This document shows, piece after piece, positions 1 through 55,131 of a stretch of 64,000 bases of DNA. Position numbers and translations under genes: made by a program. The notes beneath the pieces were generated by a model, which was not told the DNA's origin, searched no databases, and saw only the letters and a list, made by a program, of their open reading frames with translations. Every line of letters begins with the position of its first letter. Within the stretch, counting starts at the first letter, position 1. This DNA comes from Christiangramia forsetii KT0803 (GTDB lineage Bacteria; Bacteroidota; Bacteroidia; Flavobacteriales; Flavobacteriaceae): assembly GCF_000060345.1 (NCBI RefSeq), contig NC_008571.1, positions 744,001 to 808,000 on the forward strand, written 5' to 3'.

Positions 1-477
1 CGGGATATTTTTATTTTCTGTTGCTTTACCGGTCTGGCGTATGCCGATGTTAAAAAACTGAATAGAGGTGATATTAGCGTTGGTGCAGACGGTGAGGAAT
101 GGGTAAAAACAAAACGCTCCAAAACCGATACCAGAAGTAATATCCCGATATTACCCATTGCTAAAACAATCATTGAGAAATATAAAGATAATGAGCTGCT
201 GAAAGAAAAAGATTTGGTGTTACCTGTCCTAAGTAATCAAAAAATGAATGCGTATATCAAAGAGATTGCAAACTTGGCTGGCATTTCCAAGAACCTGACC
301 TTTCATCTTGCTAGACATACCTTTGCAACCACGGTGACCCTTACGAACGGAGTTCCCATAGAATCTGTAAGTAAAATGCTGGGACATACCAACCTTAAGA
401 CGACTCAGCATTATGCCAAGATTTTGGATATGAAAGTGAGTAAGGATATGGCAATTTTACGATCAAAATTTAAATAA
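1..477 (+). CDS. Tyrosine recombinase (integrase), C-terminal part, cut by the left window edge
   Basis: The reading frame is open from base 1 to the stop at 475-477 and covers most of a tyrosine recombinase catalytic domain; the true start lies outside the window. Visible motifs are HLARH (the H-x-x-R box), LGHTN (second histidine) and QHYAKI with the nucleophilic tyrosine, 30-40 residues before the end. The place of the first catalytic arginine reads TGLAYAD, with alanine where classical integrases have arginine. This is usual in the IntDOT-like group of Bacteroidetes conjugative transposons and is not evidence of inactivation. The family cuts and rejoins DNA at att sites. Its position next to a defence cluster suggests it mobilised, or once mobilised, this island. 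Which side carries the element cannot be decided here. Confidence 0.9.
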   Translation, partial: RDIFIFCCFTGLAYADVKKLNRGDISVGADGEEWVKTKRSKTDTRSNIPILPIAKTIIEKYKDNELLKEKDLVLPVLSNQKMNAYIKEIANLAGISKNLTFHLARHTFATTVTLTNGVPIESVSKMLGHTNLKTTQHYAKILDMKVSKDMAILRSKFK

Positions 478-3322: not shown

Positions 3323-3937
3323 CTAAATTATTTTCCTCTTACTAATATCAAATCCAAGCTGCCAGAAATACATATCAATAAATTTCATCTGAGTGTATTG
3401 TGGGTATATAGTTTTAAGGTTTTTAAGTTCCTCTTCATTGGACTCAATAAACTTAAAGAGTTCTCTAAGACTTTTTTCTTTTAGGGTAGTAGATTTTAGC
3501 TCTAATTGCTTGACCCCATCGATAAAAAATCGATCATAAGCTGGTAGGCATCCTAACGTTCCTAAAATTATTTTGCTTATAAGGGTGTCTGTCGGGGTAA
3601 TATTGTGTTTTTTATCGTAGTAAATCGATAGCTCCTTAATTAATTCTAATATCTTAGGTAAATTAAATAATGTAATTTCATAATTTTGGTTACATCTCAA
3701 ATGCTTATAGCTATTAAGAATATTTACAGGTTCTAAGTGAACCTTGTAATCATTTTGAAGCAGTTGGCTAGAGCCCCTATACATACCCCAACTTGCTAGG
3801 TAAAAACCTAAATGAAGTGCTAGTGTATCTGTATCTAAATTATCCTTCCCAAAAGCCTCATAACAATGTTGCCAGGAATTATAACGGTGGAATTCTAGAG
3901 AATTTTTTTTGACAAATGATTTTATTGTATCTCTCAA
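3323..3937 (-). CDS. Uncharacterised protein at the end of the type I restriction-modification operon
   Basis: The function is unknown. The 204-residue product is soluble, with no signal peptide or membrane segment. Notable segments are SWQHCYEAF near residues 21-29 and ALHLGFYLASWGMYRGSSQL near 40-60; from memory, proteins with this layout recur beside hsd genes in many bacteria. It lies 13 bases downstream of hsdM in the same orientation and is the last gene before a hairpin, so it is probably co-transcribed. Base composition matches its neighbours. It could be an accessory or control protein of the restriction system or a separate defence factor; the sequence alone cannot decide. Confidence 0.75.
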   Translation of the reverse strand: MRDTIKSFVKKNSLEFHRYNSWQHCYEAFGKDNLDTDTLALHLGFYLASWGMYRGSSQLLQNDYKVHLEPVNILNSYKHLRCNQNYEITLFNLPKILELIKELSIYYDKKHNITPTDTLISKIILGTLGCLPAYDRFFIDGVKQLELKSTTLKEKSLRELFKFIESNEEELKNLKTIYPQYTQMKFIDMYFWQLGFDISKRKII

Positions 3938-3950
3938 GATGAACGTTATC

Positions 3951-5594
3951 CTATATTTCTTTAAGCCCTAGCTCTTTCAAAAATTTGTTGTGTTCTTTTG
4001 TACTTAAGGCTATTCTCTCCTCTATATCCATTAATTCTTTGTGAACCTCTTCAAGGTTTATTTGCTCTTCAGCTTCTGCTGTGCTAACGTATCGCGAGAT
4101 ATTAAGGTTGTAGCCATTATCTTCAATTTCATCCATTGAAACTCTACGGGCATAACGCTCTATTTTTTTTGGTCGTGATTTGTAGGTCTCAATGATATTT
4201 TTAATATCAGATTTACGAAGTTCATTTTGATTTTTTGATTTTTTGTAGTTGCCCTCTGCTGATGCGTTTATGAATAATACATCACTTTCACGTTTGCATT
4301 TCTTTATGACCAAAATACATACTGGAATTCCTGTTGAATAGAATAGGTTAGCAGGCAACCCAATCACGGTATCAACATTTCCATCTTTAAGTAATTTGGT
4401 ACGAATTCGCTCCTCTGCACCACTACGGAATAATACACCGTGTGGTAAGATGATTGCCATTGTTCCATTCTGGCTTAAAAAATGGAAGCCGTGAAGTAAA
4501 AAAGCGAAATCAGCTGCGCTCTTTGGTGCTAAACCATAGCTCTTGAACCTAAAATCTTCTCCTAAAGTTTCGGTAGGCTCCCAACGTAAACTGAAAGGTG
4601 GATTTGCCACAATAGCATCAAACTCTACTTTCTTGGAAGGATTCATTTCATTTAAAATATCCCATTGGTTTTTTAAGGTGTCACCGTGGAATATCTCAAA
4701 CTCGGTATCTTTCATACCGTGTAAGAGCATATTCATACGCGCCAGATTGTAGGTAGTGATATTATTCTCTTGTCCATAAATTTTACCGATTCTTCCACCG
4801 TTGTCTTTAATACGTCTGCGTACATTTAATAATAAACTACCCGATCCACAGGCAAAATCCAGCACATTGTTTAATTTGTCTTTTGGACCGCTTGTATGGT
4901 CTGGTTTTTGAGCATCCAATGTTACAATTTGAGAGAGAACAGAAGAAACTTCTTGCGGTGTATAAAATTCCCCTGCTTTTTTACCAGAACCAGCTGCAAA
5001 CTTGCCAATCAAATATTCGTAAGCATCACCTAACGTATCGATGTCGGTGGAAAATTCGGCTATACCTTCGGCAATTTTTTGAATGATAGTACACAATTTA
5101 TCATTTCTTTCTTTTTCCGATTTTCCTAGCTTTTCCGAATTCAAATTTATTTCAGAAAACAGTCCGTGAAACGTACTCTCAAATGATTCTTCCTCGATAT
5201 GACGAAAACCTTTCTCTATGGTTTTCAGTAAATCAGGATGATGCGTACGCGCTAATTCAGTAATATTGCTCCACAAATACTTGGGTTTGATTACATAATG
5301 TACTTTTCTTTGCATTTGCTTTTCAAACTCAATAATATCCTCTTCATTATCCTCGTACCAAATTTCCAATGGTGGTGGTACTACAAAGTCTGGACGTGTA
5401 TCTTTTGACGAACTTTTTGGATAATCTTTACCAAGTTCTTTTTTTGCCGACTCTTCATAGTTGTGAGATAAGTATCGTAAAAACAGAAAAGAGAGCATAT
5501 AGTCTCGAAAAGCATCTGCATTCATCGCGCCACGTAACTTATTTGCTATACCCCAGAGGGTTTTTCCTAATTTATCTTGTTGTTTCTTACTCAT
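3951..5594 (-). CDS. hsdM: Type I restriction-modification system, DNA methyltransferase subunit
   Basis: HsdM transfers methyl groups from S-adenosylmethionine to adenine N6 in the sequence chosen by HsdS; two copies with one HsdS make the methylase, and HsdR is added for cleavage. The 547-residue product has the HsdM N-terminal helical domain (about 5-150), the SAM-binding motif DFACGSGSLLL near residue 246, and the catalytic NPPF motif near 330 (IVANPPFSLRW). Length is normal for the family. It is separated from hsdS by the ATPase gene at 5600-6679, with only 5 bases between that gene and hsdM. All key residues are present, so the methylase should be active. Confidence 0.96.
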   Translation of the reverse strand: MSKKQQDKLGKTLWGIANKLRGAMNADAFRDYMLSFLFLRYLSHNYEESAKKELGKDYPKSSSKDTRPDFVVPPPLEIWYEDNEEDIIEFEKQMQRKVHYVIKPKYLWSNITELARTHHPDLLKTIEKGFRHIEEESFESTFHGLFSEINLNSEKLGKSEKERNDKLCTIIQKIAEGIAEFSTDIDTLGDAYEYLIGKFAAGSGKKAGEFYTPQEVSSVLSQIVTLDAQKPDHTSGPKDKLNNVLDFACGSGSLLLNVRRRIKDNGGRIGKIYGQENNITTYNLARMNMLLHGMKDTEFEIFHGDTLKNQWDILNEMNPSKKVEFDAIVANPPFSLRWEPTETLGEDFRFKSYGLAPKSAADFAFLLHGFHFLSQNGTMAIILPHGVLFRSGAEERIRTKLLKDGNVDTVIGLPANLFYSTGIPVCILVIKKCKRESDVLFINASAEGNYKKSKNQNELRKSDIKNIIETYKSRPKKIERYARRVSMDEIEDNGYNLNISRYVSTAEAEEQINLEEVHKELMDIEERIALSTKEHNKFLKELGLKEI

Positions 5595-5599
5595 TATAA

Positions 5600-6679
5600 T
5601 TAATATTTAAATCGATATTTTTCAATTATCTTACTGAAAATCTCTTCGAATAGTGGGATATCTTTATCAGACATTAGATTTGACTTCGTTCTATATACAT
5701 CCTGGTGTGAAAGTGAGTTTATTTTATCTGACACCATACTAGCATCTTCCATTCCAATTTGATTTAAAACATATCCTATACGTGGTCTTCCCAGAAACGA
5801 GGCAATATGTTCAAGTAATTGTCTTAAAAGTGCAAAATGATAAACAAAGAGCTCATCATTTATTGCATCTTCTAACGTTTTTAATAGATGCAAATGGAAT
5901 AGAAATACTCCATTTTTTTCATTCAAGCTCAACTCACCAGTATTGATGTCCTTTTGTAATAAATAAGTTTTAGTTTGACTTTCAAATATTTTGGATTTTT
6001 CACCTTTAGTGAACCTATTTGCAAGAATTGAGAATAACCCAATATGGTGTGTAGTAATGATAACTTTCTTGTTTGGAAAAACACCATCAATTAGATTAAT
6101 GATAGATTCAGTTGTTAAATATATATTGTTCTCATCCATACTTGATACTGGGTCATCAATGAATAAATGGGCATCTTGTTCTCCATCACCAGTAAATGTC
6201 TCAACATCAAATAGTGCCAAATAAAAGCACCAAATAAAGATTTTTTCTTGTCCTCTTGAAATTTTAATTGGTATTCCCTTATTCTCATCTTCGTAAAAAG
6301 AAATGGACGCAATGCCTTTCTCCCTATTGCCATCTTCATATAGATTTAATTCAAAAATATAATTTGGATTATATAGTGATAACTTTTCTATCAAAATTGG
6401 GGTATCGAGCAATAGTGAGTGATGCGTATTGAGAGAACTACCCTTTATACCCAGCTTCACATTTTCATTTTGATGCTCTTCATCATTATCCCAAACAAAT
6501 AAATCTTCGCTGTAAGCATTATAATATACTCCAGTATGTCGGCCCCCATTTTGAGCCTTGGTATAATTTTTATACCCGACGGATAACTGCGTTTTACCAG
6601 TAGCGTTAAAAGCATAAATCAAACAAATTTTATGTTCTAATTCGTAAAGCTCTTTAGCTATTTCTTTCGAGTTTTTCAT
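5600..6679 (-). CDS. ABC-type ATPase resembling PrrC/RloC anticodon nucleases, embedded in the hsd operon
   Basis: The 359-residue product has a P-loop at residues 23-30 (AFNATGKT, first glycine replaced by alanine), a degenerate ABC signature (SRGQEK), Walker B with D-loop (LFIDDPVSSMD) and an H-loop (TTHH). The C-terminal ~75 residues carry R286-x3-E290 and, 39 residues after the arginine, a histidine in SLSH. PrrC uses Arg320, Glu324 and His356 to cut tRNA anticodons, so spacing and order agree well. RQLLEH also fits the R-x4-H motif of HEPN nucleases. PrrC is kept silent by a type I restriction complex and released by phage anti-restriction peptides. The gene lies between hsdS (4-base gap) and hsdM (5-base gap). 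Nuclease activity is inference; a plain DNA-repair type ATPase is the alternative. Confidence 0.75.
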   Translation of the reverse strand: MKNSKEIAKELYELEHKICLIYAFNATGKTQLSVGYKNYTKAQNGGRHTGVYYNAYSEDLFVWDNDEEHQNENVKLGIKGSSLNTHHSLLLDTPILIEKLSLYNPNYIFELNLYEDGNREKGIASISFYEDENKGIPIKISRGQEKIFIWCFYLALFDVETFTGDGEQDAHLFIDDPVSSMDENNIYLTTESIINLIDGVFPNKKVIITTHHIGLFSILANRFTKGEKSKIFESQTKTYLLQKDINTGELSLNEKNGVFLFHLHLLKTLEDAINDELFVYHFALLRQLLEHIASFLGRPRIGYVLNQIGMEDASMVSDKINSLSHQDVYRTKSNLMSDKDIPLFEEIFSKIIEKYRFKY

Positions 6680-6683
6680 ACTT

Positions 6684-7916
6684 CTAGTTCACTTTAGGGA
6701 ACAAACCCTGTAATAAGCCCTTTTTATGTTGTTCTATTTGAGCTATTTTGTTTTGTTGAGCAGAAATCAAATCATCCATCGATGTGAGGCAAGTGGCTAT
6801 TTTTTGCTGTTCTTGCATAGATGGTAGAGATATGGTGATTTTTGAAAAATTTTTATAAAACAAATAGCTTCTAATGCCTCCTTCAGTATTTCTGTTAACT
6901 AACTTCAAGAAGTACGGTGTTTCCAAATATTGATTTAAAAATTTGTCATCTACGATATTTTCCGTTTTGAAGCACACATATAAAGAACTAATTAGAATAT
7001 TGTTCAAATTTCCGGAATAGCCTATAGAACCAACGTTAATCCTGGCTGGATTATACGCAAAAGTATTTTTTTCAATTATTTTATATAATGATATGTCATA
7101 GCCTCTTCGTTTACTATTCATATCATCAAATTGTTCAGATTGTGGCAAAAAACCGTCCTTATTATTTATCGAATAAACTGGTAAATTTTTGTTGTCTTTA
7201 TTTTTGTTAGATATAACGTTCGTAATCTTTCCAAGGGTAGTTTTTTCCCACTCCTTATCATTTTTAAACTCTGCAAACCGATAGTTAGGAACGTTTAGCC
7301 CATCCTGCGGAAACAGATTTTGCATCAGACCTCTTTTATGACGTTTTAAGGCTTCCAACTTCTCAATAAATCCGAGAATTAACTCATCAAGCGAGGCTAT
7401 ACAATCTGCAATTTTTTGTTGTTCTTGGGTTTGCGGTTGGGGTATTTTAATTTCTGAAAATTGTTTATAACTTACCATTTTCCCATCTCGAATGCCTTCA
7501 AGATTTTTATTTAGATGGGATATAAACACATCTGTTTTAAAATATTGTTTGTAAAAAAGATTCAGTAAATTTTTTTTCTTCCTTCTCAAAATTATGTATG
7601 CTGGGCTACATATTCCTAAATGATTCGAATATTCTATACCCCCTTGAAATGATCTTAGACTAATAATAAAATCACCTACTTCAACAACTTTATAGCCTTC
7701 AACACTTTTTTTAGATACGGACACGTGATAATTGATTTCCTCTCTTGGAATGGCTCCTTGATCTTGGGTAATAGCTAGGATGGGTAGTTCTGAGTTATGA
7801 TTTTTATTTGAGACTGTTTTGAATAGCTTATTACCATAAAAGTAATCCCATTCCCCATCATCTTCAAATGCAGGAAATCTTAGCTCTGGCACTAATTTAT
7901 TTTTTATCTTATTCAT
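6684..7916 (-). CDS. hsdS: Type I restriction-modification system, specificity subunit
   Basis: HsdS chooses the bipartite DNA target through two target recognition domains held apart by conserved helices. The 410-residue product shows TRD1 (about 5-150), a central conserved helix with QEQQKIADCIASLDELI, TRD2 (about 210-345), and a second copy of the conserved helix, QEQQKIATCLTSMDDLI, near the end. Each ends in a similar phrase (KRGLMQNLFP / KKGLLQGLFP). I chose the ATG at 7916 because it overlaps the hsdR stop in the 8-base sequence ATGAATAA, a typical coupling; an upstream in-frame codon would add eight residues inside hsdR. TRDs are variable, so the recognition sequence cannot be predicted here. 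Confidence 0.94.
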   Translation of the reverse strand: MNKIKNKLVPELRFPAFEDDGEWDYFYGNKLFKTVSNKNHNSELPILAITQDQGAIPREEINYHVSVSKKSVEGYKVVEVGDFIISLRSFQGGIEYSNHLGICSPAYIILRRKKKNLLNLFYKQYFKTDVFISHLNKNLEGIRDGKMVSYKQFSEIKIPQPQTQEQQKIADCIASLDELILGFIEKLEALKRHKRGLMQNLFPQDGLNVPNYRFAEFKNDKEWEKTTLGKITNVISNKNKDNKNLPVYSINNKDGFLPQSEQFDDMNSKRRGYDISLYKIIEKNTFAYNPARINVGSIGYSGNLNNILISSLYVCFKTENIVDDKFLNQYLETPYFLKLVNRNTEGGIRSYLFYKNFSKITISLPSMQEQQKIATCLTSMDDLISAQQNKIAQIEQHKKGLLQGLFPKVN

Positions 7917-10911
7917 AAGGCTGTAGTCCAGAAATTTCACGGCCTTCGGCCTGTTTTTTTAATTGGGGCACAAGGTCTTCCATTAATTGTAATTCCCGCT
8001 TACGGCGTTCTTTCCAGCCCAATTCAAGTGGTTCTAAAAGATCAGTCAGGTGTTCACCATCAAAAATCATTCTTTCCATAATGACTGCAACAAAGGTTTT
8101 AAGATGTTTGGTTTCTAATCCATTTTTACGGGCGATTGTTGCCAATTCTTTTTCGTGTTTTTCAGTTTTAAATGTTTCAAAGTTATTTTTAAGCTCTTCG
8201 ACGGTTTGCCCTACGCTCCAATCAACTTGATTAATAAAATCTGAAAAATCTTCTTCCTCATCCATCAAATTTGAATGTGATTTTAGCAAATTAATAATCT
8301 GTTCCCGGCTCATTTTCTGCTTATTGGGTTTTTGCTGGGTGCTGTCCGCAATCAAACTCATTATATAATCATAGTCTATTATCGCACTACTAAAGAGTAC
8401 AAACTCAAAGTCTAGTTCCTGTATCTCGGATGGTGCATCATCGCCTTGTTTTTGCTGTATCTCACGAAGTTGCTTTGCAGTTTCTATATAGCTGCTCCTA
8501 AACTCCTGTAATTTTTCAGTAGGCAAAATCTCCTCTATAACTTCTTGCTGCTCGTCGTTCAGGTCTGTATACTGGTCTAGCTCGGTCTTAAGCTTTTGTA
8601 CCTTTTTAAAACTCTTCACAAAGGCTATACGCGCCGCATCACCTTTAAGGTTGTAAACTTCTTGAGGTTCATTCACTAAATTATGTTCTTTCATAAACTC
8701 GCCCAATGCCGCCACGGCTTCTTGATATTGTTCTATAACTACAGGTGCAGGTTCTACCATCCAGATTTTTACGGCGCGGTCTTTATCCTCTCCTGAGAAC
8801 AAAGTAATGGCTTGATTTACCGAGTCCTGCTGCGAACGGAAATCCAATATATTCCCATAAGGTTTAGTGTCATTCAAAACCCGATTGGTTCTGGAAAACG
8901 CCTGAATCAGGCCGTGATATTTCAAGTTTTTATCAACATACAGCGTATTGAGATATTTTGAGTCAAAACCTGTGAGCAACATATCTACCACGATGGTAAT
9001 ATCTATTTTTTTGTCTTTTGGAAGAGTCTTGTTGTCATACTTCTGGTCTTTGATGCGTTGTTGTACATCTTGGTAATACAAGTCAAACTCATTGATGGTA
9101 TGGTGTGTTTTAAATTGTTTGTTATAGTCTGCAATTATTTCTTCCAAAGCCCTTTTCTTTTCTTCAGGATTGTGCTTGTTGTCTTCCCGTTCAGTGTCTA
9201 AATCTTCTTGCAGTTGTCTGATGTCGGCAGCATTCTTTTGACTTTGCTGGTTACCATCTTTTGCTATTAATTGTGCGGGTGGCGAAAAGACAGCGGTAAT
9301 TTGGAAAGCGTTGTAATCTGGATCTTCCTCCGCTAGTTGTTTTTGTTTGTTTTTTAACAAACGATAATATGTAATGGCATCGTTTATAGAACTGGTTGCC
9401 AGAACAGCATTAAAGCGACGATTGTTGGTTGCCCTGTCGTGTTTTTTAATGATTGCATCTACGACGGCTTGTTGTGCTAATGCCTCACCAGGTTTCGCTT
9501 GGTGTTTGCCCTCGCCCTTAAAATAGTCAATATGAAAACGTAGTACGTTTTTATCCTCTATGGCGTGTGTGATTGTGTATTTGGGCAATTCATTCTCAAA
9601 TACCGATTTCGTGGTTTTATAGGTTTCAAATTCTCCTTCGCGAATTTTATAAGTGGCATTCTCTTCAAAAATAGGTGTGCCTGTAAATCCAAATAATTGG
9701 GAATTAGGGAAGAAATCCTTAATGGCTCTATGATTTTCACCGAACTGCGACCGGTGGCACTCATCAAAAATGAATATCATCCGCTTATCACTCAAGGGTT
9801 CTAAACGTTCTTTATAATTACGTGTTTGCGTGCCGTCAAGTGCCAAGCCAAGTTTCTGGATTGTAGTAACTATTACTTTATCCGTATAATCATCAGATAA
9901 AAGTCGCCGTACCAGCGTTTCGGTATTCGTATTCTCTTCTACACTGCCTTCTTGAAACTTATTGAACTCTTCTCGGGTTTGCCTATCCAAATCCTTACGA
10001 TCTACCACAAACAAACATTTGTGAATATCGTTATTGCCCTTAAGTAAAGTCGCCGCTTTAAAAGATGTGAGTGTTTTTCCACTTCCCGTAGTGTGCCAAA
10101 TGTAGCCATTACCTCTGTATTGTTCAATGGAATCAACGATAGCCTTAACCGCATAAATTTGATATGGGCGCATTACTAATATTTTTTGCTCACTTTCCAC
10201 GAGCACCATATACTTGCTTATCATTTCGCCCAGAGTACACTTTTCAAGAAACTTCTGTGTAAATGGCTCTATATGTGTTATCTTCTTATTATCAGGGTCG
10301 GCTAATTGATAAATAGGCAAAAATTGCTCATCGGCATTAAAGGCGAAGTGTTTATTCTTGTTATTGGAAAAATAGTAGGTATTTGTTCTGTTGCTTACTA
10401 TAAACAACTGCATAAAACAAAGCAGCGTATTGCCATAGCCGTTTCCTGGCTCATTCTTATAATCAATAATTTGCTGCATTGCTTTTCGCGGCGATATATC
10501 AAGTTTTTTAAGCTCAATTTGCACTAATGGCAAACCGTTCAGCAATAGAATCACATCATATCTTTGGTTACTGTTCTCGGTGTTGATTTTTAATTGACTT
10601 ATGACTTCAAAATCATTTTTACACCAATCCTTGAGATTAACAAGCATATAATGAAGAGGCGTTCCGTCCTCTCGCTGGAAATATTGACGCTCACGTAATT
10701 TTTTGGAAGCGAGAAAAACATCAGGTGTGATGATTTCTTCTCTTAAGCGTATAAATTCGTTATCTGACAATCGCACTCGATTAAGAGCCTCAAACTTTTC
10801 TCTGAAATTAAGCTCTAGCGTTTTTCTATCAATTATACCAGAACGGTACGTATATTTTTGCGCTACCAGTTGGTTGATGAATTGTTGTTCTATTTGGTTT
10901 TCTTTGGCCAT
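7909..10911 (-). CDS. hsdR: Type I restriction-modification system, restriction and translocase subunit
   Basis: HsdR translocates DNA with ATP and cuts it far from the HsdS target. The 1000-residue protein has an N-terminal PD-(D/E)xK nuclease domain with the D...IELKK part near residues 115-135, the P-loop HTTGSGKT near 273, the DECH box (IFDECHRSQ) near 385, the GFTGTP motif shortly after, and a second RecA-like domain with DMLLTGFDSKYLN and QAFSRTNR. The C-terminal helical region binds the methylase core. Length and motif order are normal. It is first of the hsd genes in transcription order and is preceded, 40 bases upstream, by the AbiEii-type gene. Confidence 0.96.
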   Translation of the reverse strand: MAKENQIEQQFINQLVAQKYTYRSGIIDRKTLELNFREKFEALNRVRLSDNEFIRLREEIITPDVFLASKKLRERQYFQREDGTPLHYMLVNLKDWCKNDFEVISQLKINTENSNQRYDVILLLNGLPLVQIELKKLDISPRKAMQQIIDYKNEPGNGYGNTLLCFMQLFIVSNRTNTYYFSNNKNKHFAFNADEQFLPIYQLADPDNKKITHIEPFTQKFLEKCTLGEMISKYMVLVESEQKILVMRPYQIYAVKAIVDSIEQYRGNGYIWHTTGSGKTLTSFKAATLLKGNNDIHKCLFVVDRKDLDRQTREEFNKFQEGSVEENTNTETLVRRLLSDDYTDKVIVTTIQKLGLALDGTQTRNYKERLEPLSDKRMIFIFDECHRSQFGENHRAIKDFFPNSQLFGFTGTPIFEENATYKIREGEFETYKTTKSVFENELPKYTITHAIEDKNVLRFHIDYFKGEGKHQAKPGEALAQQAVVDAIIKKHDRATNNRRFNAVLATSSINDAITYYRLLKNKQKQLAEEDPDYNAFQITAVFSPPAQLIAKDGNQQSQKNAADIRQLQEDLDTEREDNKHNPEEKKRALEEIIADYNKQFKTHHTINEFDLYYQDVQQRIKDQKYDNKTLPKDKKIDITIVVDMLLTGFDSKYLNTLYVDKNLKYHGLIQAFSRTNRVLNDTKPYGNILDFRSQQDSVNQAITLFSGEDKDRAVKIWMVEPAPVVIEQYQEAVAALGEFMKEHNLVNEPQEVYNLKGDAARIAFVKSFKKVQKLKTELDQYTDLNDEQQEVIEEILPTEKLQEFRSSYIETAKQLREIQQKQGDDAPSEIQELDFEFVLFSSAIIDYDYIMSLIADSTQQKPNKQKMSREQIINLLKSHSNLMDEEEDFSDFINQVDWSVGQTVEELKNNFETFKTEKHEKELATIARKNGLETKHLKTFVAVIMERMIFDGEHLTDLLEPLELGWKERRKRELQLMEDLVPQLKKQAEGREISGLQPYE

Positions 10912-10951: not shown

Positions 10952-11743
10952 TTATAGTTTCTCAAGAATTACAGTTTTCAGCCATTGAAACGCTTCTTCT
11001 TGGTCATATTTAATTTCCGGTCGTAATAAGGCTTCCATATCTCCTGTAAAATTGGGATCTTGTTCTTTTTCTTCAATATTCATTAAAAACTCTTTTTGAC
11101 CTGGCGGTCTATTTCCTGTTGAAAATGTTGTGTACTCCTTAAAACATTTAATGATCTGGTCTATGTCCAATTCTATATGCAATCTGGAATAATCCAAGTC
11201 GAATAAATCCCTTCCCTTGCTACGCTGGTATAAGGCTCTTAATTTGGTTCCCAGTAATTCATTGATATTATAAGTTCGGATATTGGCTTTCCCTGTAAAC
11301 CAATCGTTTTTTACTTCAAAAGGAATTTCTACCCAAGGCAATACGTTAAAATGCTCTTTACAGTTGATTTCCAATTTTAAGCGCAATCTAATTCCTTCAT
11401 ATTCAGAAGTGAAACGATATAGTGCTTTTGCTCCGTGTCCTTTAACTTGTGTTTTTCTTGGTTCTTCAAAAAATGTGATTACTTCATTTAGACGTTGCAT
11501 TATTGGTTTTATAGGACCTGGTTTTATTTGGACCAAATCTATATCTTCAGAATATCTCGGTGCTGGATTCAAATACAATTTGTGAAGGGCGGTACCGCCT
11601 CTAAAGGCTAAGTTTTCATTTAAGAATTCATCTGAGAAAATTTCTACCAATGCTCGACTAATGACAAGGTCTTGTTCTACTTGATAAAACTGTTTCCAAG
11701 GTGCTTGTTCTTGCCATTTCGCTATGTAGGGCTTGGGTATCAT
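10952..11743 (-). CDS. AbiEii/AbiGii-type nucleotidyltransferase toxin
   Basis: AbiEii toxins are nucleotidyltransferases that stop growth, for example during phage infection, and are paired with AbiEi antitoxins. The 263-residue product has the family signature GGTALHKLYL near residue 48 and the metal-binding SEDIDLV (D-x-D) near 66. A longer reading frame starts at 11782, but the ATG at 11743 overlaps the antitoxin stop as ATGA and is preferred. Antitoxin-first order with a 4-base overlap is the classical arrangement. The stop is 40 bases before hsdR in the same direction, so the toxin pair and the restriction genes may share a transcript. The family call is strong; the precise substrate is unknown. 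Confidence 0.9.
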   Translation of the reverse strand: MIPKPYIAKWQEQAPWKQFYQVEQDLVISRALVEIFSDEFLNENLAFRGGTALHKLYLNPAPRYSEDIDLVQIKPGPIKPIMQRLNEVITFFEEPRKTQVKGHGAKALYRFTSEYEGIRLRLKLEINCKEHFNVLPWVEIPFEVKNDWFTGKANIRTYNINELLGTKLRALYQRSKGRDLFDLDYSRLHIELDIDQIIKCFKEYTTFSTGNRPPGQKEFLMNIEEKEQDPNFTGDMEALLRPEIKYDQEEAFQWLKTVILEKL

Positions 11744-12531
11744 AAATCGCTCTCTATTTTTATATTCACATCCACTTTCCAATTATTATGAATGGCTCCA
11801 GGTCTCTCTTTTGATTTTGGACTCAATAACACTGGATAGTATTTTGATGTCTTTAAGTACTCTTTTATGGGTTCGTACAAATTCGATTCAACTTGTAGTT
11901 CGTCTTCTAGCAAAAAGCCCAAACGTTGTAAGGTGCTTTTGTGAGGATACCAACTAAGTAAATCTTCTATATCTTGAACGTTTATTTCTTCTGACAGTTC
12001 TTCGAGAATAGCTAACATTCTATTGATACCACCCAACTTGGTTTGATGATGGATTAAATCTACAGTTGTTAGCGCTGGACTTGAAATTTTAAAAATACCT
12101 GCATCCGATTTTTTCTCTAAAATGTTTTTTGTTGGCCATTTTGAAGTTGTAAAAAAATGAATATCTATCGATGATTTTTTAATATCAGGGAATGACTTAT
12201 CTGTCATTACATATTCCCGTTGCACTTGTTGATGTCCTGCGCCGTGAAACTTTGCAGCAGAATAAAAGCCTAAGTAATAATTACTATCCAAATAGTCAAA
12301 AAGCTTATGTGCAAATAACTGCACAGGTAGCTGTTCTTGTTTGGAATATCTTGGTGGAATGATTAAATAAAACCCTTTTCTTAAGTTTACAATTTCCTTT
12401 TTGGCTACCAAACGTGAAAGCTCTCGCTTTAAAGCAGTATCAGTTTTATGACACTTTTTTACAAGTTCATCCCAAGAAAACGAGTATTCCTCAAAGGATT
12501 GTAGTTGCTTTATATAGTCTGAAATATCCAC
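11740..12531 (-). CDS. AbiEi-type antitoxin with N-terminal winged helix
   Basis: The 263-residue product begins with a winged-helix domain (about 1-70: FSWDELVKKCHKTDTALKRE, then LVAKKEIVNLRKGFYLI) followed by the AbiEi C-terminal region (LGFYSAAKFHGAGHQQ). AbiEi proteins neutralise AbiEii indirectly (type IV toxin-antitoxin) and repress their own promoter by binding inverted repeats. An imperfect inverted repeat lies just upstream (12548-12579). It is the first gene of the leftward run that continues through AbiEii and the hsd genes. Confidence 0.88.
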   Translation of the reverse strand: MDISDYIKQLQSFEEYSFSWDELVKKCHKTDTALKRELSRLVAKKEIVNLRKGFYLIIPPRYSKQEQLPVQLFAHKLFDYLDSNYYLGFYSAAKFHGAGHQQVQREYVMTDKSFPDIKKSSIDIHFFTTSKWPTKNILEKKSDAGIFKISSPALTTVDLIHHQTKLGGINRMLAILEELSEEINVQDIEDLLSWYPHKSTLQRLGFLLEDELQVESNLYEPIKEYLKTSKYYPVLLSPKSKERPGAIHNNWKVDVNIKIESDL

Positions 12532-44719: not shown

Positions 44720-47104
44720 CTAATCGTTTCTTAAGGAATTTATAGGATTTGAAACAGCCGCTTTAATCGCCTGGAAACTTACGGTAACAAAAGCGATGAA
44801 TATGGCAATTATCCCTGCAAAGACAAATATCTGCCAGTCTATTGCTATGCGATAAGCAAATTCCTGAAGCCATTTTTCTGTCATCCAATACGCAAGTGGA
44901 AAGGCAAATACCAGGGCTGCCAAAACTAGTTTAATGAAGTCTTTGGATAGCAATCTGGTAATGCTCGCAATACTTGCGCCCAGAACTTTTCGAACGCCAA
45001 TCTCTTTGGTTCGTTGTTCTGCCATAAATGCCGCAAGTCCGAACAAACCAAGGCAGGCTACAAAAATTGCCAGTCCGGCAAAAATCAGAGCGATCTCGGC
45101 AGTTCTACGTTCCGAAGCATACATTTGCTCTACATTTTTATCTAAAAAGGAATAATCGAATGCAGATGAAGGCACAATTTCATTAAAGGTATTTTCGAAT
45201 TTAGCTAGCGAGGTAGCCATGTTAGCGCTATTAAACCGAATAAGTAAATAGCGTAGCGGTTCCCTGCCATTGTTAAAGGCATAAGCGCCAATGGGCGAAT
45301 GCAGGGAGGAAAAATTGAAATTGTCTACCACACCCACCACGTAAGCATTCGTTCCTAATTGCATGCTAACATTTTTTCCAATCGCTTCCTGTGGACTAAT
45401 ACCAAGGTAGTCTACGGCTTTTTTGTTTAGAACCACATCTACAATACTATCTCCTTCCTGTTTGTTTTTAGGAAGTCCGTTTCCGGCAAGGAACTTTAGT
45501 TGCAGCACATCACTAATCCCGTCTCCGCTTCTATTGGTTTGAATGTTAATACTCTCTTCAGAATTTATATTCTTATATAGAGAACGACCACTTACACTCA
45601 ATCCCGGATAACCCTGTGCCATCGTCGCACTGGAAACTTCGGGAAGTTGTCTAAAGCGCTTTATCAGGGATTCTTTATCACTATCTTTCTTTACTGCCGA
45701 GGTAGAAACAGCCAGTATATTTTCCGGATTATATCCCAGATCTTTATTCTGAATGAAATGAAGCTGATTATAAATTACCAGCACACTAATGATCAAAATA
45801 ACCGATGCTGAAAATTGAACGATCACCAATCCTTTTCTTAGCACTGTAGAAAAACTTCCGTTTTCTTTGGAAGATTTCATGACTTCCATTGGAGAAAATT
45901 TAGATAAATATAATGCAGGGAATGAGCCGGCAACAAGTGTCGTAACCAGCCAGATAATAAAAATTGCTACAATAAATGGAAGCGAGGTAAGCGCACTATA
46001 ACTCAATACGGTTCCCGTAACAGATTCGAAGAGAGGAATCGAAATAAGACTTAAAATAATAGCCAGTACGATTGCTATCAGGGTTACAAATCCCGTTTCA
46101 ATAAAAAACCTGAAGATCAATACCTTTCCTGAAGCTCCAAGTGTTTTGTTAATGCCAACATCTTTGGTGCTTTTCTGTGATCGTGCCGTAGCCAGATTCA
46201 TATAATTAATACAGGCGATCAATAAAATTAAAATAGCCAGCAGGCTGAAGTTTCGAACTTCATCGATGCTTCCTATTTTTGAGGAATTCCCTTTTTCAAT
46301 TTTCGTAGAATACAGATGTATTTTTTCCAGTGGTTGTAGACTTAAGGTGTACCATTGATATTCCTTTTCAACTTTTTTGTCTAGCAGAATGGAAATTTTC
46401 TTTTCAACATTTGCCATTTTTGAACCTTTATTCAGTAGAAAAAAGGTTTCAAAACTTGCGTTGCTCCAGGATGGATTTTCATAAAATCCCACAGAGCTGA
46501 ACGATGCGATCAACTCGCCCTCAAAACTGGAATTTATAGGAAAGTCTTTATATACACCGGTAACTTCCATTGCCATATCATTATCTACTTTCAATATTTT
46601 GCCTAAAGCATTGCGGGTTCCAAAATATTTTTTCGCGGTAGTTTCTGATAAAGTAATGGTATTTGGGCGTACTAATGCGGTGGCGGGATTTCCGGAAATA
46701 AATTCAATTTGAAATATATCAAAGAAAGTAGCATCCGCATAATACATTTTTGGCTCTACATACTGCTCATTTTCGGCTTCAATAAAGGCAGTACTGCCAA
46801 AGTTATGATCCCAGAGCCTGGCTGAATTTTCTATTTCCGGGATCTCTGTTTTTGCATTCGGGCTCAAAGCCGCAGGAACGGTAGACCATATCTCCTTATT
46901 CGATTTTTCCGTCGTGTTCAGCAAAGCCCGATAAATACGATCTTTATTCGCATACATTTTATCGAAACTACGCTCCTGCATCACAAATAGAAAAAGCAGG
47001 ATCGTAATAGTAAGACCAATAGATAGTCCCAGAATATTGATGAATGAGAATGTTTTATCTGACTTTATTTTTCGCCAGGATATTTTGATGAAATTTTTAA
47101 ACAT
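44720..47104 (-). CDS. MacB/FtsX-type ABC permease (paralog 1)
   Basis: The 794-residue protein has a first membrane helix near residue 20, a periplasmic MacB-like domain, three FtsX helices at about 290-400, then the same plan again with C-terminal helices. The repeated FtsX phrase is KDVGINKTLGASGKVLIFRF in the first half and KEIGVRKVLGASIASITRLL in the second, showing internal duplication. It ends NPINSLRND, as its paralogs end NPVKSLRTE. It begins MFKNFIKISWRKIKSDKTFS, the family N-terminus. Substrates of such permeases include lipoproteins and peptides; the real cargo is unknown. Confidence 0.92.
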   Translation of the reverse strand: MFKNFIKISWRKIKSDKTFSFINILGLSIGLTITILLFLFVMQERSFDKMYANKDRIYRALLNTTEKSNKEIWSTVPAALSPNAKTEIPEIENSARLWDHNFGSTAFIEAENEQYVEPKMYYADATFFDIFQIEFISGNPATALVRPNTITLSETTAKKYFGTRNALGKILKVDNDMAMEVTGVYKDFPINSSFEGELIASFSSVGFYENPSWSNASFETFFLLNKGSKMANVEKKISILLDKKVEKEYQWYTLSLQPLEKIHLYSTKIEKGNSSKIGSIDEVRNFSLLAILILLIACINYMNLATARSQKSTKDVGINKTLGASGKVLIFRFFIETGFVTLIAIVLAIILSLISIPLFESVTGTVLSYSALTSLPFIVAIFIIWLVTTLVAGSFPALYLSKFSPMEVMKSSKENGSFSTVLRKGLVIVQFSASVILIISVLVIYNQLHFIQNKDLGYNPENILAVSTSAVKKDSDKESLIKRFRQLPEVSSATMAQGYPGLSVSGRSLYKNINSEESINIQTNRSGDGISDVLQLKFLAGNGLPKNKQEGDSIVDVVLNKKAVDYLGISPQEAIGKNVSMQLGTNAYVVGVVDNFNFSSLHSPIGAYAFNNGREPLRYLLIRFNSANMATSLAKFENTFNEIVPSSAFDYSFLDKNVEQMYASERRTAEIALIFAGLAIFVACLGLFGLAAFMAEQRTKEIGVRKVLGASIASITRLLSKDFIKLVLAALVFAFPLAYWMTEKWLQEFAYRIAIDWQIFVFAGIIAIFIAFVTVSFQAIKAAVSNPINSLRND

Positions 47105-47124
47105 GAATGAATGATTTTCAGGTT

Positions 47125-47889
47125 TTAATCTATTTTTTGAATGACAGTTTCTCCTATTTTGAGTCCGTTGTTGACTTTTGCGTTTCCTTTATACTGAATT
47201 CTGGCTTCCCCAAATGCCGAGACTTTTAGTTTTTCTGAAACATTTACCACAATATGATTGTTGCCATAAGCGGCAATTTTAGTTTCAGCAGATTGAAGAT
47301 CTACTGCACTCACCTCACTTTTCCCATAGCAGCGATAACGCTGAAAATCTACATTTCCATCTTTGATTTCCAAATAGCTTTCGCCATACATGGCTACCTT
47401 AAAATCTTCCGCAGTAATACTTTCAAGATAAACTTTTGCAGAACCATAAATATCCAGATCAAAATCTTCAGTTTGTATCGCATCTGCAAAATTGATCATC
47501 TCTTCACTCCGAATTTCTACCTCTTCCAGATTTCTATAATAAACGGTAATAGTTGCTTCGGTTCCATTGTAAATTGAACGATCCTGTTCAATTCCGTTGA
47601 TCATAACCTCTTCTTCCTTTGCAACCACTTTTGCATCGTCCAGGTAAATATGGAGTGTTTTTTTATCAACTTCTATATTGATCTTCTCAGTTTCGACGCT
47701 CGATTTTTCGATCACCACAGATTCCTGATCTGATTGTTTAAAAACTACCTCGATATACGGGCTGACGATTACTTCCTTAAACGGAGATACTTCAATAGTT
47801 TTAGATTGCGCATTAGAAAAACTAAAGTTCAGGACGCTTATGATCAAAGTGATTAGCATTTTGTTTTGAGTTAGAATTGATTTTTTCAT
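47125..47889 (-). CDS. Exported DUF2807-type (head GIN domain) protein inside the permease cluster
   Basis: The 254-residue product has a signal peptide (to FSNAQ) and the beta-helix-like DUF2807 arrangement: repeated short strands such as LDIYGSAKVYLESI, VAMYGESYLEIK, IAAYGNNHIVVNV and VSAFGEARIQYKG, at about 20-residue spacing. The fold is found in putative adhesins and periplasmic proteins of Bacteroidetes. Its place between two permease genes (20 bases after its stop, 10 before its start) suggests it belongs to the transport system, perhaps as cargo or sensor. That is inference. Confidence 0.85.
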   Translation of the reverse strand: MKKSILTQNKMLITLIISVLNFSFSNAQSKTIEVSPFKEVIVSPYIEVVFKQSDQESVVIEKSSVETEKINIEVDKKTLHIYLDDAKVVAKEEEVMINGIEQDRSIYNGTEATITVYYRNLEEVEIRSEEMINFADAIQTEDFDLDIYGSAKVYLESITAEDFKVAMYGESYLEIKDGNVDFQRYRCYGKSEVSAVDLQSAETKIAAYGNNHIVVNVSEKLKVSAFGEARIQYKGNAKVNNGLKIGETVIQKID

Positions 47890-47899
47890 AAATATTGTT

Positions 47900-50311
47900 T
47901 TATTCTGTTTTTAAACTTTTTATGGGGTTTACACTGGCAGCTTTATAGCTTTTTATGCCAATGGTCAAAAAGGCAATTCCCATGGTTACAACTGCAGCCA
48001 TGAGGTAAAGCCACCAGTGAATACTGGTGCGATATGCAAAATCCTGTAACCATTTATTCATTAAAAAATAACTAAGCGGGAAGGCGATTAAAAATGACAG
48101 TCCTACAAGCTTTAAAAAATCTTTCGAAAGAAGCGTAACAATCTGTGTTGCAGAAGAACCAAGCACTTTTCTAATCCCAATTTCTTTAAAACGTTGTTCT
48201 GCAGTAAAGGTCACCAGTCCAAATAGTCCAAGACAGGCAACAATAATTGTTAGTAAAGCGAAAAGGCTAAGAATAGTTCCCATTTTTCGTTCTTTCAAAT
48301 AGGTATGATTGTAGGCATCGTCCAAAATACTGTAGTTAAAGCCTTCTTTTACATTGTAGTTATTCCAATTATCATTGAGATTTTCAATAAGGACGGACAT
48401 ATCGGCAACTTTTGAACGGATGATAATACCGCCGTAGGGATTATACTTTAAAATAAGTGGCTCGATTTCCTGATGCAAAGATTTAAAATTGAAGTTTTTA
48501 ATAACCCCTATAACCGTCATTGTTTTTAGTCCGTCATGAGTATCACGCTGAAAAGTATTTCCAATTGGATCTTTGTCAAAACCGAGAATTTCGATAGCTT
48601 TTTGGTTGAGGATCACTTTATCGGATTCCGCTCCAAAATCCTTAGAAAAATTTCTTCCTTCCAGTAACTCCATACCCATGGTGGGAATATAGTTTTCATC
48701 AATATTGTAAAATGACATTCTACGCTGAAATTCGTTGTTTTTAAAGATCCCCCCAACTTCATTATCGCTTTCCCCTGCAGGAACAAATGCTGAATGGGTC
48801 AGGTTTTCCACCAGCGGATTATTTTTAACCTGGTCTATATAGTTATCTTCATTATTGCCCAATAAATAAGAATTTCTAACTACTAAAAGTTGATCTTTCT
48901 CATAGCCTAATGCCTTATCCTGAATAAAATCCATTTGCTCTTTGACTACCAGTGTCGAGAGGATAAGCCCCGCGGAAATCACAAACTGAAAAATTACCAA
49001 TCCGCTTCTAAGTCCTGAATTTTTCCCGCTTCCGGAAAATTTAGATTTTAATGCGTTTAAAGGATTGAAGGAAGAAAGGTAAAATGCCGGATATCCACCG
49101 GCTAGAAATCCAATAAAAAAGATAAGACTGAAAAAAGCCAGTATTATTTCAGGAGAAAGCAAATATTGAAAATTTAGTTCTTTCCCAGCAAGTAGATTGA
49201 AAAAAGGAAGTGAAAGCGAAACCAGTAGTAAAGCCAGAAAAGCAGCAAGAAAAGTAGCGATAAAGGACTCTGCTAAAAACTGGTAAATAAGTTGCTTTTT
49301 ATTAGAACCAAGCACTTTTCTAATGCCAACTTCCTTTGCTCTTTTTGTGGCCGAAGCAGTCGCCAGATTCATAAAATTAATACAAGCGATGATTAGCATA
49401 AAAATCGCGATTGCACTAAAAATATAAACATATTTGATATCGCCTCCTTGTTCAAGGATAGTGGCATCAGAAAAATCGGAATATAAATGAATATCTGTTA
49501 GAGGTTGCAGGAAAAGACCAATTTTGTTGTCTTGGGTAAACTCCGTGTAGGTCATTCCCAGCGCGTCCTTTATCTGTGGACCCATATATTTTTCAGAAAT
49601 TGCCGGAAGTTTAGCTTCTACAGTTTCAATTCGTGTATCTTTTTGTAAAACCAGATAGGTGAAAAAATCAGATTCCATCCAACTTGTTTTTTTAGCCTGT
49701 GCGTACCCTAAAGTAGAAACCAAAAGATCAAAATGGAAATGGGAATTCTTTGGCATATCTTCTATGACACCGGTAATTGTAAGGTTTTCATCTCTGTTGG
49801 TTACCTTCAGGGTTTTACCGATAGGATCTATATTTCCAAAAGTGTTTTCAGCAAAAGATTTGGAGATGACTACCGTATTTGGTTTATCCAGGGCTCTATT
49901 TTTAACACCCTGAATAATTGGGAAGCTAAATATTTCAAAAAAGTTTGGGTCTACATAGGCAAGACTGCTTTGTCCGAAATAGGTTCCATTATATTCTATG
50001 CGATTGTTGTGTGATTTTGCAAGTCGGGTAGATTTGGTAACTTCGGGAAGATCGTTTTTAAGTGCCTGAGCCACGGGAGCCATCACCACAGCTTCTTTCA
50101 TTTCTTCCCCGTTTACATTTGCCTTAAAAACAACCCTAACAATTCGTTCTGCTTTTTCGTGGAAACGATCATAACTAAGTTCATCTGTGACAAAGAGCAT
50201 GATCAACAGGCAGGAAGCTATGCCTATCGCCAATCCGGTGATATTAATAGAAAAAATACCTTTGTCTTTAAGGATATTTCTCCAGCCTGTTTTTAGATAG
50301 TTTTTGATCAT
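47900..50311 (-). CDS. MacB/FtsX-type ABC permease (paralog 2)
   Basis: The 803-residue product shares the family plan: N-terminal MIKNYLKTGWRNILKDKG, MacB-like periplasmic region, first FtsX core with KEVGIRKVLGSNKKQLIYQF near residue 330, and a second with KEIGIRKVLGSSATQIVTLL near 720, ending NPIKSLKTE. The second periplasmic region (about 440-680) contains the ILNQKAIEILG and VIGVIKNFNFKSLH phrases repeated across the paralogs. It is followed after 10 bases by the DUF2807-type gene. Confidence 0.92.
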   Translation of the reverse strand: MIKNYLKTGWRNILKDKGIFSINITGLAIGIASCLLIMLFVTDELSYDRFHEKAERIVRVVFKANVNGEEMKEAVVMAPVAQALKNDLPEVTKSTRLAKSHNNRIEYNGTYFGQSSLAYVDPNFFEIFSFPIIQGVKNRALDKPNTVVISKSFAENTFGNIDPIGKTLKVTNRDENLTITGVIEDMPKNSHFHFDLLVSTLGYAQAKKTSWMESDFFTYLVLQKDTRIETVEAKLPAISEKYMGPQIKDALGMTYTEFTQDNKIGLFLQPLTDIHLYSDFSDATILEQGGDIKYVYIFSAIAIFMLIIACINFMNLATASATKRAKEVGIRKVLGSNKKQLIYQFLAESFIATFLAAFLALLLVSLSLPFFNLLAGKELNFQYLLSPEIILAFFSLIFFIGFLAGGYPAFYLSSFNPLNALKSKFSGSGKNSGLRSGLVIFQFVISAGLILSTLVVKEQMDFIQDKALGYEKDQLLVVRNSYLLGNNEDNYIDQVKNNPLVENLTHSAFVPAGESDNEVGGIFKNNEFQRRMSFYNIDENYIPTMGMELLEGRNFSKDFGAESDKVILNQKAIEILGFDKDPIGNTFQRDTHDGLKTMTVIGVIKNFNFKSLHQEIEPLILKYNPYGGIIIRSKVADMSVLIENLNDNWNNYNVKEGFNYSILDDAYNHTYLKERKMGTILSLFALLTIIVACLGLFGLVTFTAEQRFKEIGIRKVLGSSATQIVTLLSKDFLKLVGLSFLIAFPLSYFLMNKWLQDFAYRTSIHWWLYLMAAVVTMGIAFLTIGIKSYKAASVNPIKSLKTE

Positions 50312-50333
50312 GATGAATTTCTTTGATGATGGT

Positions 50334-52709: not shown

Positions 52710-52711
52710 AA

Positions 52712-55129: not shown

Positions 55130-55131
55130 AA

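Follow-up and report, generated by a model that had tools for sequence, protein, structure and literature searches.

A predicted PrrC anticodon nuclease encoded within a type I restriction operon of Christiangramia forsetii KT0803

The window that we analyzed, 64,000 nucleotides of the Christiangramia forsetii KT0803 chromosome (NC_008571.1, positions 744,001 to 808,000), encodes on its minus strand a restriction-modification operon transcribed in the order hsdR-hsdS-prrC-hsdM. HsdR (7909..10911, minus strand, 1000 aa) matches TIGR00348 in NCBIfam (E 2.5e-114) and carries an EcoR124_C domain (PF12008 in Pfam, E 2.7e-60); HsdS (6684..7940, minus strand, 418 aa) has two specificity-domain stretches (PF01420 in Pfam, E 3.2e-19); and HsdM (3951..5594, minus strand, 547 aa; TIGR00497 in NCBIfam, E 1.5e-109) keeps the NPPF motif. 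Between hsdS and hsdM lies prrC (5600..6679, minus strand), an open reading frame of 359 aa with an ATG start and no internal stop, predicted from a PADLOC model, an alignment, and an AlphaFold2 (AF2) model to encode an anticodon nuclease. Gaps of 4 bp (hsdS/prrC) and 5 bp (prrC/hsdM) separate it from its neighbors, and hsdR and hsdS overlap. The initial annotation had placed an ABC-type ATPase gene between hsdS and hsdM, and the Pfam and NCBIfam matches of the hsd neighbors bear this out.

We take the EcoR124_C domain of HsdR as a mark of type IC; judged by its sequence, the operon appears to be type I, EcoR124/IC-like, with all three hsd partners intact-looking. Linkage to a type Ic restriction-modification operon, which is one of the criteria for PrrC, is seen here in an hsdR with EcoR124_C and in the adjacent hsdM and hsdS; EcoR124I is described as type Ic (PMC3014915). 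The genome that carries prrC is a single contig of 3.80 Mb. A second strong N6_Mtase match (263.6 bits; genome C1:2705853-2706860) lies outside the window and perhaps belongs to another type I system, so PrrC may have other type I partners.

Ahead of window position 1, genome C1:742941-744477 (L178:1442-2978), whose end falls at window positions 1-477, holds a gene for tRNA-Ser(UGA) and, behind it, a complete ORF of 412 aa. The ORF looks like a tyrosine recombinase, and the layout ahead of the restriction/AbiE block looks like that of a tRNA-integrated genomic island. Just upstream of hsdR, at 10952-12531, is an AbiEii/AbiEi toxin-antitoxin pair (Pfam E 2.8e-38 and 4.5e-21). A 204-aa ORF (3323-3937) lies downstream of hsdM; searched up to E 1, it matched nothing in Pfam or PADLOC, and relatives were found neither in 129 loci (tblastn) nor in 23 other genomes of the genus, and none were confirmed in viral contigs. 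On these search results we rejected this ORF as a part of the system. The window also contains a polysaccharide utilization locus (15200-40232), in which the six genes checked encode a SusC/SusD-like pair, GH43, GH127, an FGGY kinase, and GH97, and a run of large genes (44720-57564), of which the two checked both encode MacB/FtsX-type ABC permeases.

The 359-aa protein belongs to the PrrC family. Against the PADLOC PrrC model (PDLC02360) it scored 301.7 bits (E 1.8e-90) over residues 2-358 of 359, the runner-up PADLOC family scoring 35.5 bits, and we found no feature that puts it outside the family. Pfam matched AAA_13 (E 8.2e-11, residues 139-351). At 359 aa and without a CxxC motif, the protein falls inside the PrrC size range reported as 341-416 aa without a zinc-hook insert (PMC2610378). 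Membership is supported by the family model together with the residue alignment, a profile-profile comparison (hhalign), the AF2 fold, and synteny, in agreement with the initial annotation, which had proposed a PrrC-like candidate with a type I partner.

In tblastn searches with the window protein, 113 plasmid records matched, 96 of them with one place spanning ≥80% of the query; the best plasmid relative was ~33% identical, and some of the 30 matches listed were annotated as "anticodon nuclease." The phage records searched with the same query gave zero matches, and a viral collection yielded 33 prrC-like loci, one of them a fragment. At E 0.001 the PrrC model matched 10 of 59 whole genomes, the genome of C. 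forsetii included. Strong matches came from only three of those 59: C. forsetii itself, a genome of the same genus (G017), and a genome of the same family (G025), whose PrrC is identical to that of Flavicella sediminum (L003, L086). A scan of a genome collection confirmed at least 574 relatives, of which we kept the best 80 (identity up to 63%) as ranked by likeness to the window protein, and the frequencies reported here are those of this sample.

As a stand-in for E. coli PrrC (EcoPrrC) we used an E. coli plasmid gene annotated as anticodon nuclease (L137, 396 aa), which has D222, D287, R320, E324, and H356 at the PrrC positions given in PMC3014915 and shares 109 of 329 aligned residues with the window protein. 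An alignment of 122 proteins comprised the window protein, L003, L012-L128, and L130-L132, with near-copies kept; it was made without L001 (the window itself) and without L002 and L011, treated as one gene split over two contig ends. The predicted catalytic residues R286 (5822..5824), E290 (5810..5812), and H325 (5705..5707), all encoded on the minus strand, align exactly with R320, E324, and H356 of L137, upholding the resemblance claimed for them at the outset, and each is invariant in 122 of 122 proteins. The distance from E to H is 35 residues in the window protein, 32 in the E. coli protein, and 32-37 across the set. In a 117-row set only 23 of the 359 positions of the window protein do not vary, and the chance that three randomly picked positions are all invariant is 0.0002. 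Because they align with the E. coli triad and are invariant throughout the set, R286, E290, and H325 are not a chance motif.

The ATPase motifs were read from the same alignment. In the Walker A motif AFNATGKT (residues 23-30; 6590..6613, minus strand), N25, G28, K29, and T30 are invariant in 122/122. The first position, Gly in the general motif, is A23; the initial annotation had reported this replacement correctly and had taken it as one mark of a distinct version, but Ala occupies the position in 119 of the 122 proteins and in the E. coli protein (A40). A26 aligns with E. coli G43. Position 26 is split among G (49 proteins), A (40), S (23), R (8), and T (2) (n = 122), and the column is biased by one of two scan patterns, which permitted only G or A there. 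With Ala family-wide at position 23 and present in 40/122 at position 26, the P-loop is no distinguishing mark, and we rejected the view that its Ala marks the enzyme as distinct or dead. The ABC signature-like motif KISRGQ (residues 139-144; 6248..6265, minus strand) has K139 and S141 in 122/122 and G143 in 119/122. Q144 (6248-6250) is peculiar to the window protein, the other 121 aligned proteins having E, and is the residue that departs from the ABC-ATPase motif criteria for PrrC. The Walker B/D-loop core DDP (residues 175-177; 6149..6157, minus strand) is invariant at D175, D176, and P177 in 122/122, as is H211 (6047..6049, minus strand; aligned with E. coli H251 in L137), which we take to be the linchpin His from its place after Walker B. 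A conserved block in alignments A1 and A3, YYNAYSEDLFVWDND (residues 52-66; 6482..6526, minus strand), is presumed to be the 15-residue PrrC box, the choice of residues being ours.

AF2, run with a 73-row alignment, modeled the window protein with a mean pLDDT of 90.4 and a pTM of 0.82. Read from this model, the domain boundaries suggest an ABC-ATPase at about residues 1-250 and a helical nuclease at about residues 258-357. After the ABC head the model is all-helical (261-274, 280-295, 301-307, 313-324, and 341-355); R286 and E290 fall in the second of these helices, and H325 lies just past the fourth, in a less certain stretch (block 321-330, mean pLDDT 70). An AF2 model of L113, a member of the E. 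coli clade, has the same C-terminal helix order (mean pLDDT 82.7). When C-terminal regions of the window protein's clade and the E. coli clade were compared with hhalign, all regions being cut from one joint alignment, the probability was 99.5% and E was 3.4e-23; for a control with N-terminal regions, E was 0.14. The C-terminal domain is homologous to that of E. coli PrrC and is predicted to be all-helical.

A phmmer search of a PDB copy found no solved relatives up to E 10, and hence no PrrC structure by sequence, and a PDB profile search returned only two Rad50-head chains (E 0.0018 and 0.0027). Up to E 10, Foldseek gave 1246 matches in the PDB and 1021 in the viral library; at E 0.001 the counts were 47 and 5, respectively. 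The 50 matches listed per library were ABC/SMC/Rad50/PtuA heads and other nucleotide-binding or unnamed proteins, with TM scores by query of 0.20-0.36, so the C-terminal domain is not identified by fold alone; no HEPN protein was named among them. HEPN domains are all-helical with an R...H active site, and PrrC has been placed in this superfamily (PMC3710099). Given the Foldseek matches listed and the outcome of the sequence search for a PrrC structure, assignment of the C-terminal nuclease domain to this superfamily rests on homology to PrrC, and we treat it as a putative HEPN domain.

The order hsdR-hsdS-prrC-hsdM is the usual one among the relatives of the window protein that we examined. 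We scored only the next gene on each side of prrC in 122 loci (L012-L128, L130-L132, L137, and L138, a set that differs slightly from that of the 122-protein alignment). The gene lies directly behind hsdS in 112 of them, with 94 arranged S-prrC-hsdM, 17 arranged S-prrC-hsdR, and 1 with a second prrC; the remaining 10 comprise 5 truncated at contig ends and 5 with other arrangements (L050, L065, L095, L126, and L132). The initial annotation had called the gene order unusual, a view at odds with the 94 loci and with the same order published for PrrC170 (PMC11555353). Gene order and P-loop are both common among the relatives examined, and the idea of a distinct version based on them does not stand.

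A tree was built from 118 of 124 rows (L101, L103, L109, L114, L122, and L131 were dropped) by a quick method with SH-aLRT support only; it has 40 open forks and includes long rows such as L126 and L095, and its midpoint root serves for drawing only. Order labels are our own: RSCM was also given to rows in which hsdR was not visible (such as L048, L050, L054, and L088), and MSCR to L112, L113, L116, and L118, in which hsdM was not visible. Clade I, 18 M-S-prrC-R rows that include the E. coli protein, forms one side of a branch with an SH-aLRT of 99. Beside it stands clade II, whose 17 rows are for the most part R-S-prrC-M and come from plasmids, E. coli, viral contigs, and a single genome contig. 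The window protein and L017 fall within clade III, an 82-row set (branch support, 100) in which 81 of 82 rows are labeled R-S-prrC-M and which spans Bacteroidota and twelve other phyla as labeled, many of the rows being metagenome assembled.

Some loci show further arrangements. In a Halomonas MAG, hsdS and hsdM are separated by a tandem pair of prrC-like genes (L029:9986-13885). R-S-prrC-M loci of E. coli and Klebsiella (L013:3874-7658, L131, and L177) contain a further pair of genes between hsdR and hsdS; in L131 and L177 this pair is annotated as a TrlF-family ATPase and an RNA-binding-domain protein. In G017, PrrC pieces sit at two contig ends (L002 and L011); hsdM-hsdS precedes one piece and hsdR follows the other. 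Should the two pieces belong together, the genus has the E. coli-type order too.

E. coli PrrC, encoded at the EcoprrI locus (hsdM-hsdS-prrC-hsdR), has the same motifs, triad, and C-terminal domain as the window protein. The two are homologous over most of their length, have type IC-like hsd partners, and are encoded right after hsdS, but they differ in gene order (M-S-C-R versus R-S-C-M), lie on separate sides of the tree, and differ in length (396 versus 359 aa) and in the presumed tRNA-contact loop. PrrC170 from Klebsiella quasipneumoniae, cloned as HsdR, HsdS, PrrC, HsdM, is reported to defend against T1 and T7, to arrest growth when expressed, to target tRNA-Lys, and to be 35% identical to EcoPrrC (PMC11555353). 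Going by this published description, its gene order and its make-up of ABC-ATPase plus nuclease are as in the window. A homologue on a K. quasipneumoniae plasmid (L177), considered separately from any identification with PrrC170, is 31% identical to the window protein. The cited PrrC literature also reports active PrrC proteins of H. influenzae and S. mutans (PMC3014915). Among the matches listed from the open PMC literature, we recognized none that examines the function of a protein from the window protein's branch; the H. influenzae, S. mutans, and PrrC170 proteins may belong to it, so members of this branch may have been tested.

Studies of E. coli PrrC report that peptide 284-294 crosslinks to the anticodon stem-loop, that D287 contacts the modified wobble base, that a stable anticodon stem inhibits the enzyme, and that the adverse effect of hypomodified wobble bases is reversed in a D287N mutant (PMC3014915). 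The contact sequence is also reported to vary within the family, and substrates may vary with it (PMC3014915); because of this variation, Asp287 is not a defining feature of PrrC. The presumed contact loop of the window protein, residues 254-262 (5894..5920, minus strand), aligns with E. coli PrrC 285-295. In the column that MAFFT assigns to D287 (117 rows, L126 being dropped as well), within a loop that varies in length, D is found in 17/18 rows of clade I, 10/17 of clade II, and 4/82 of clade III; clade III has K in 37 and N in 25 of its 82 rows, and the window protein has N256. Gapless anchoring on the invariant H262 places D in only 8/18 of clade I and E254 in the window protein. In the column after D287, clade III has D in 44 and E in 11 of 82 rows, and the window protein has G257. 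The loop changes length, which makes the assignment of the D287 column uncertain, and the apparent departure of the window protein's branch from E. coli in this loop is best treated as a lead rather than as a result.

At least two tRNA-Lys(UUU) genes of identical sequence are present in the host, and their anticodon loop, CUUUUAA, is the same as that of E. coli lysT. For the 5-bp anticodon stem-loop, calculated as unmodified RNA, the energy is -4.7 kcal/mol in the host versus -0.4 kcal/mol in lysT; the comparator is presumably K-12 lysT, taken by its position. The tRNA genes came from an RF00005 search with 44 matches, 30 loci fetched, and ARAGORN run on 24. An E. coli-like pattern, GACTYTTAATC, was rejected as a tRNA-Lys finder after it hit 4 places in the C. 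forsetii genome, none of them a tRNA, and the five matches listed from a similarity search for E. coli tRNA-Lys were all tRNA-Val. Regarding the MnmA and MnmC routes to U34 modification, MnmA is present in the host genome (372 bits), and the MnmC oxidase model found nothing there above its cut-off (best 60 bits versus 174.2), a model that exceeded the cut-off in 2 of 14 control genomes.

RloC likewise joins an ABC-ATPase to a C-terminal nuclease with the R-x3-E...H triad and is described as a protein of 658-897 aa with a zinc-hook coiled coil that is rarely linked to hsd genes (PMC2610378). That the window protein is such a Rad50-like nuclease, acting independently of restriction-modification, is nevertheless extremely improbable: RloC is about twice its length, and the window protein lacks the hook and the CxxC motif, is tightly linked to hsd genes, and has a longest modeled helix of 18 residues, leaving no long coiled-coil helices. 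By comparison, L004 and L005 (~750 aa, from the same taxonomic order), which we took for RloC-like, each carry CPFC. We therefore rejected the RloC half of the initial "PrrC/RloC-like" label. That the window protein is inactive or degenerate and is retained because it does something else in the operon is slightly easier to entertain and still very unlikely. A23 and A26 are off the general Walker A consensus and Q144 sets the window protein apart from its relatives, but the two alanines recur in the family at the frequencies given above, and the remaining motif residues, like the triad, are intact.

A PrrC of altered specificity would also be silenced by Hsd but would cut another tRNA, or would cut tRNA-Lys in a manner suited to a stable stem and to a wobble uridine with a different modification. 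We regard this as unlikely, though well ahead of the two readings just discussed. The scarcity of D at the D287 column in clade III next to its prevalence in clades I and II, the lack of an MnmC oxidase match above the cut-off in a host with MnmA, the more stable host anticodon stem, and the behavior of the D287N mutant all point toward it. However, the loop changes length, and anchoring on H262 leaves clade I itself with D in fewer than half of its rows; the mostly acidic next column of clade III suggests that the acidic contact may merely have shifted; the host tRNA-Lys loop is identical to that of E. coli; and PrrC170, with the same gene order, targets tRNA-Lys. The acidic neighboring column and the chance that branch members have already been tested both lowered our estimate. 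We are equally doubtful of the broader proposition that a large hsd-linked PrrC branch, found in many phyla, uses a rebuilt contact loop to read a differently modified wobble uridine, a stable stem, or another tRNA; if it were true, the tRNA-Lys/mnm5s2U rule of E. coli PrrC would fail for much of the family.

PrrC is characterized by cleavage of tRNA-Lys 5' of the wobble base, by silencing in the Hsd complex, and by unmasking through Stp or dTTP. We consider it highly probable that the window protein is a PrrC anticodon nuclease of the hsdR-hsdS-prrC-hsdM type, silenced by Hsd, triggered by phage, and cutting most likely tRNA-Lys(UUU). The analysis itself establishes family membership, the identity of the triad, a predicted fold, synteny, and partner genes that look intact; silencing, trigger, cleavage, and substrate are what we infer from the E. 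coli and Klebsiella literature. Modeled on E. coli PrrC (PMC3014915), the protein would be kept inactive in a complex with the type IC-like HsdRMS from the same operon until restriction is disabled by a phage product, which for E. coli PrrC is T4 Stp, or by some other perturbation. The ABC-ATPase domain would then change state, with nucleotide hydrolysis, and the C-terminal nuclease would cut a tRNA anticodon loop, most likely that of tRNA-Lys(UUU). Cleavage would stop translation and with it phage growth. Against this explanation we count the stable host stem, D in only 4/82 of clade III at the D287 column, Q144, the second N6_Mtase match with the other type I partners that it may stand for, and the fact that Foldseek named no HEPN protein among the matches listed.

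The operon would contain a second-line phage defense built into a restriction system, ordinary in kind and already known as a system. The present analysis documents a complete-looking PrrC system in a Flavobacteriaceae chromosome. Since the presumed contact loop, the host's tRNA-Lys stem, and the detected wobble-modification genes differ from those of E. coli, the way in which PrrC selects its tRNA could be tested directly in the window protein's branch.
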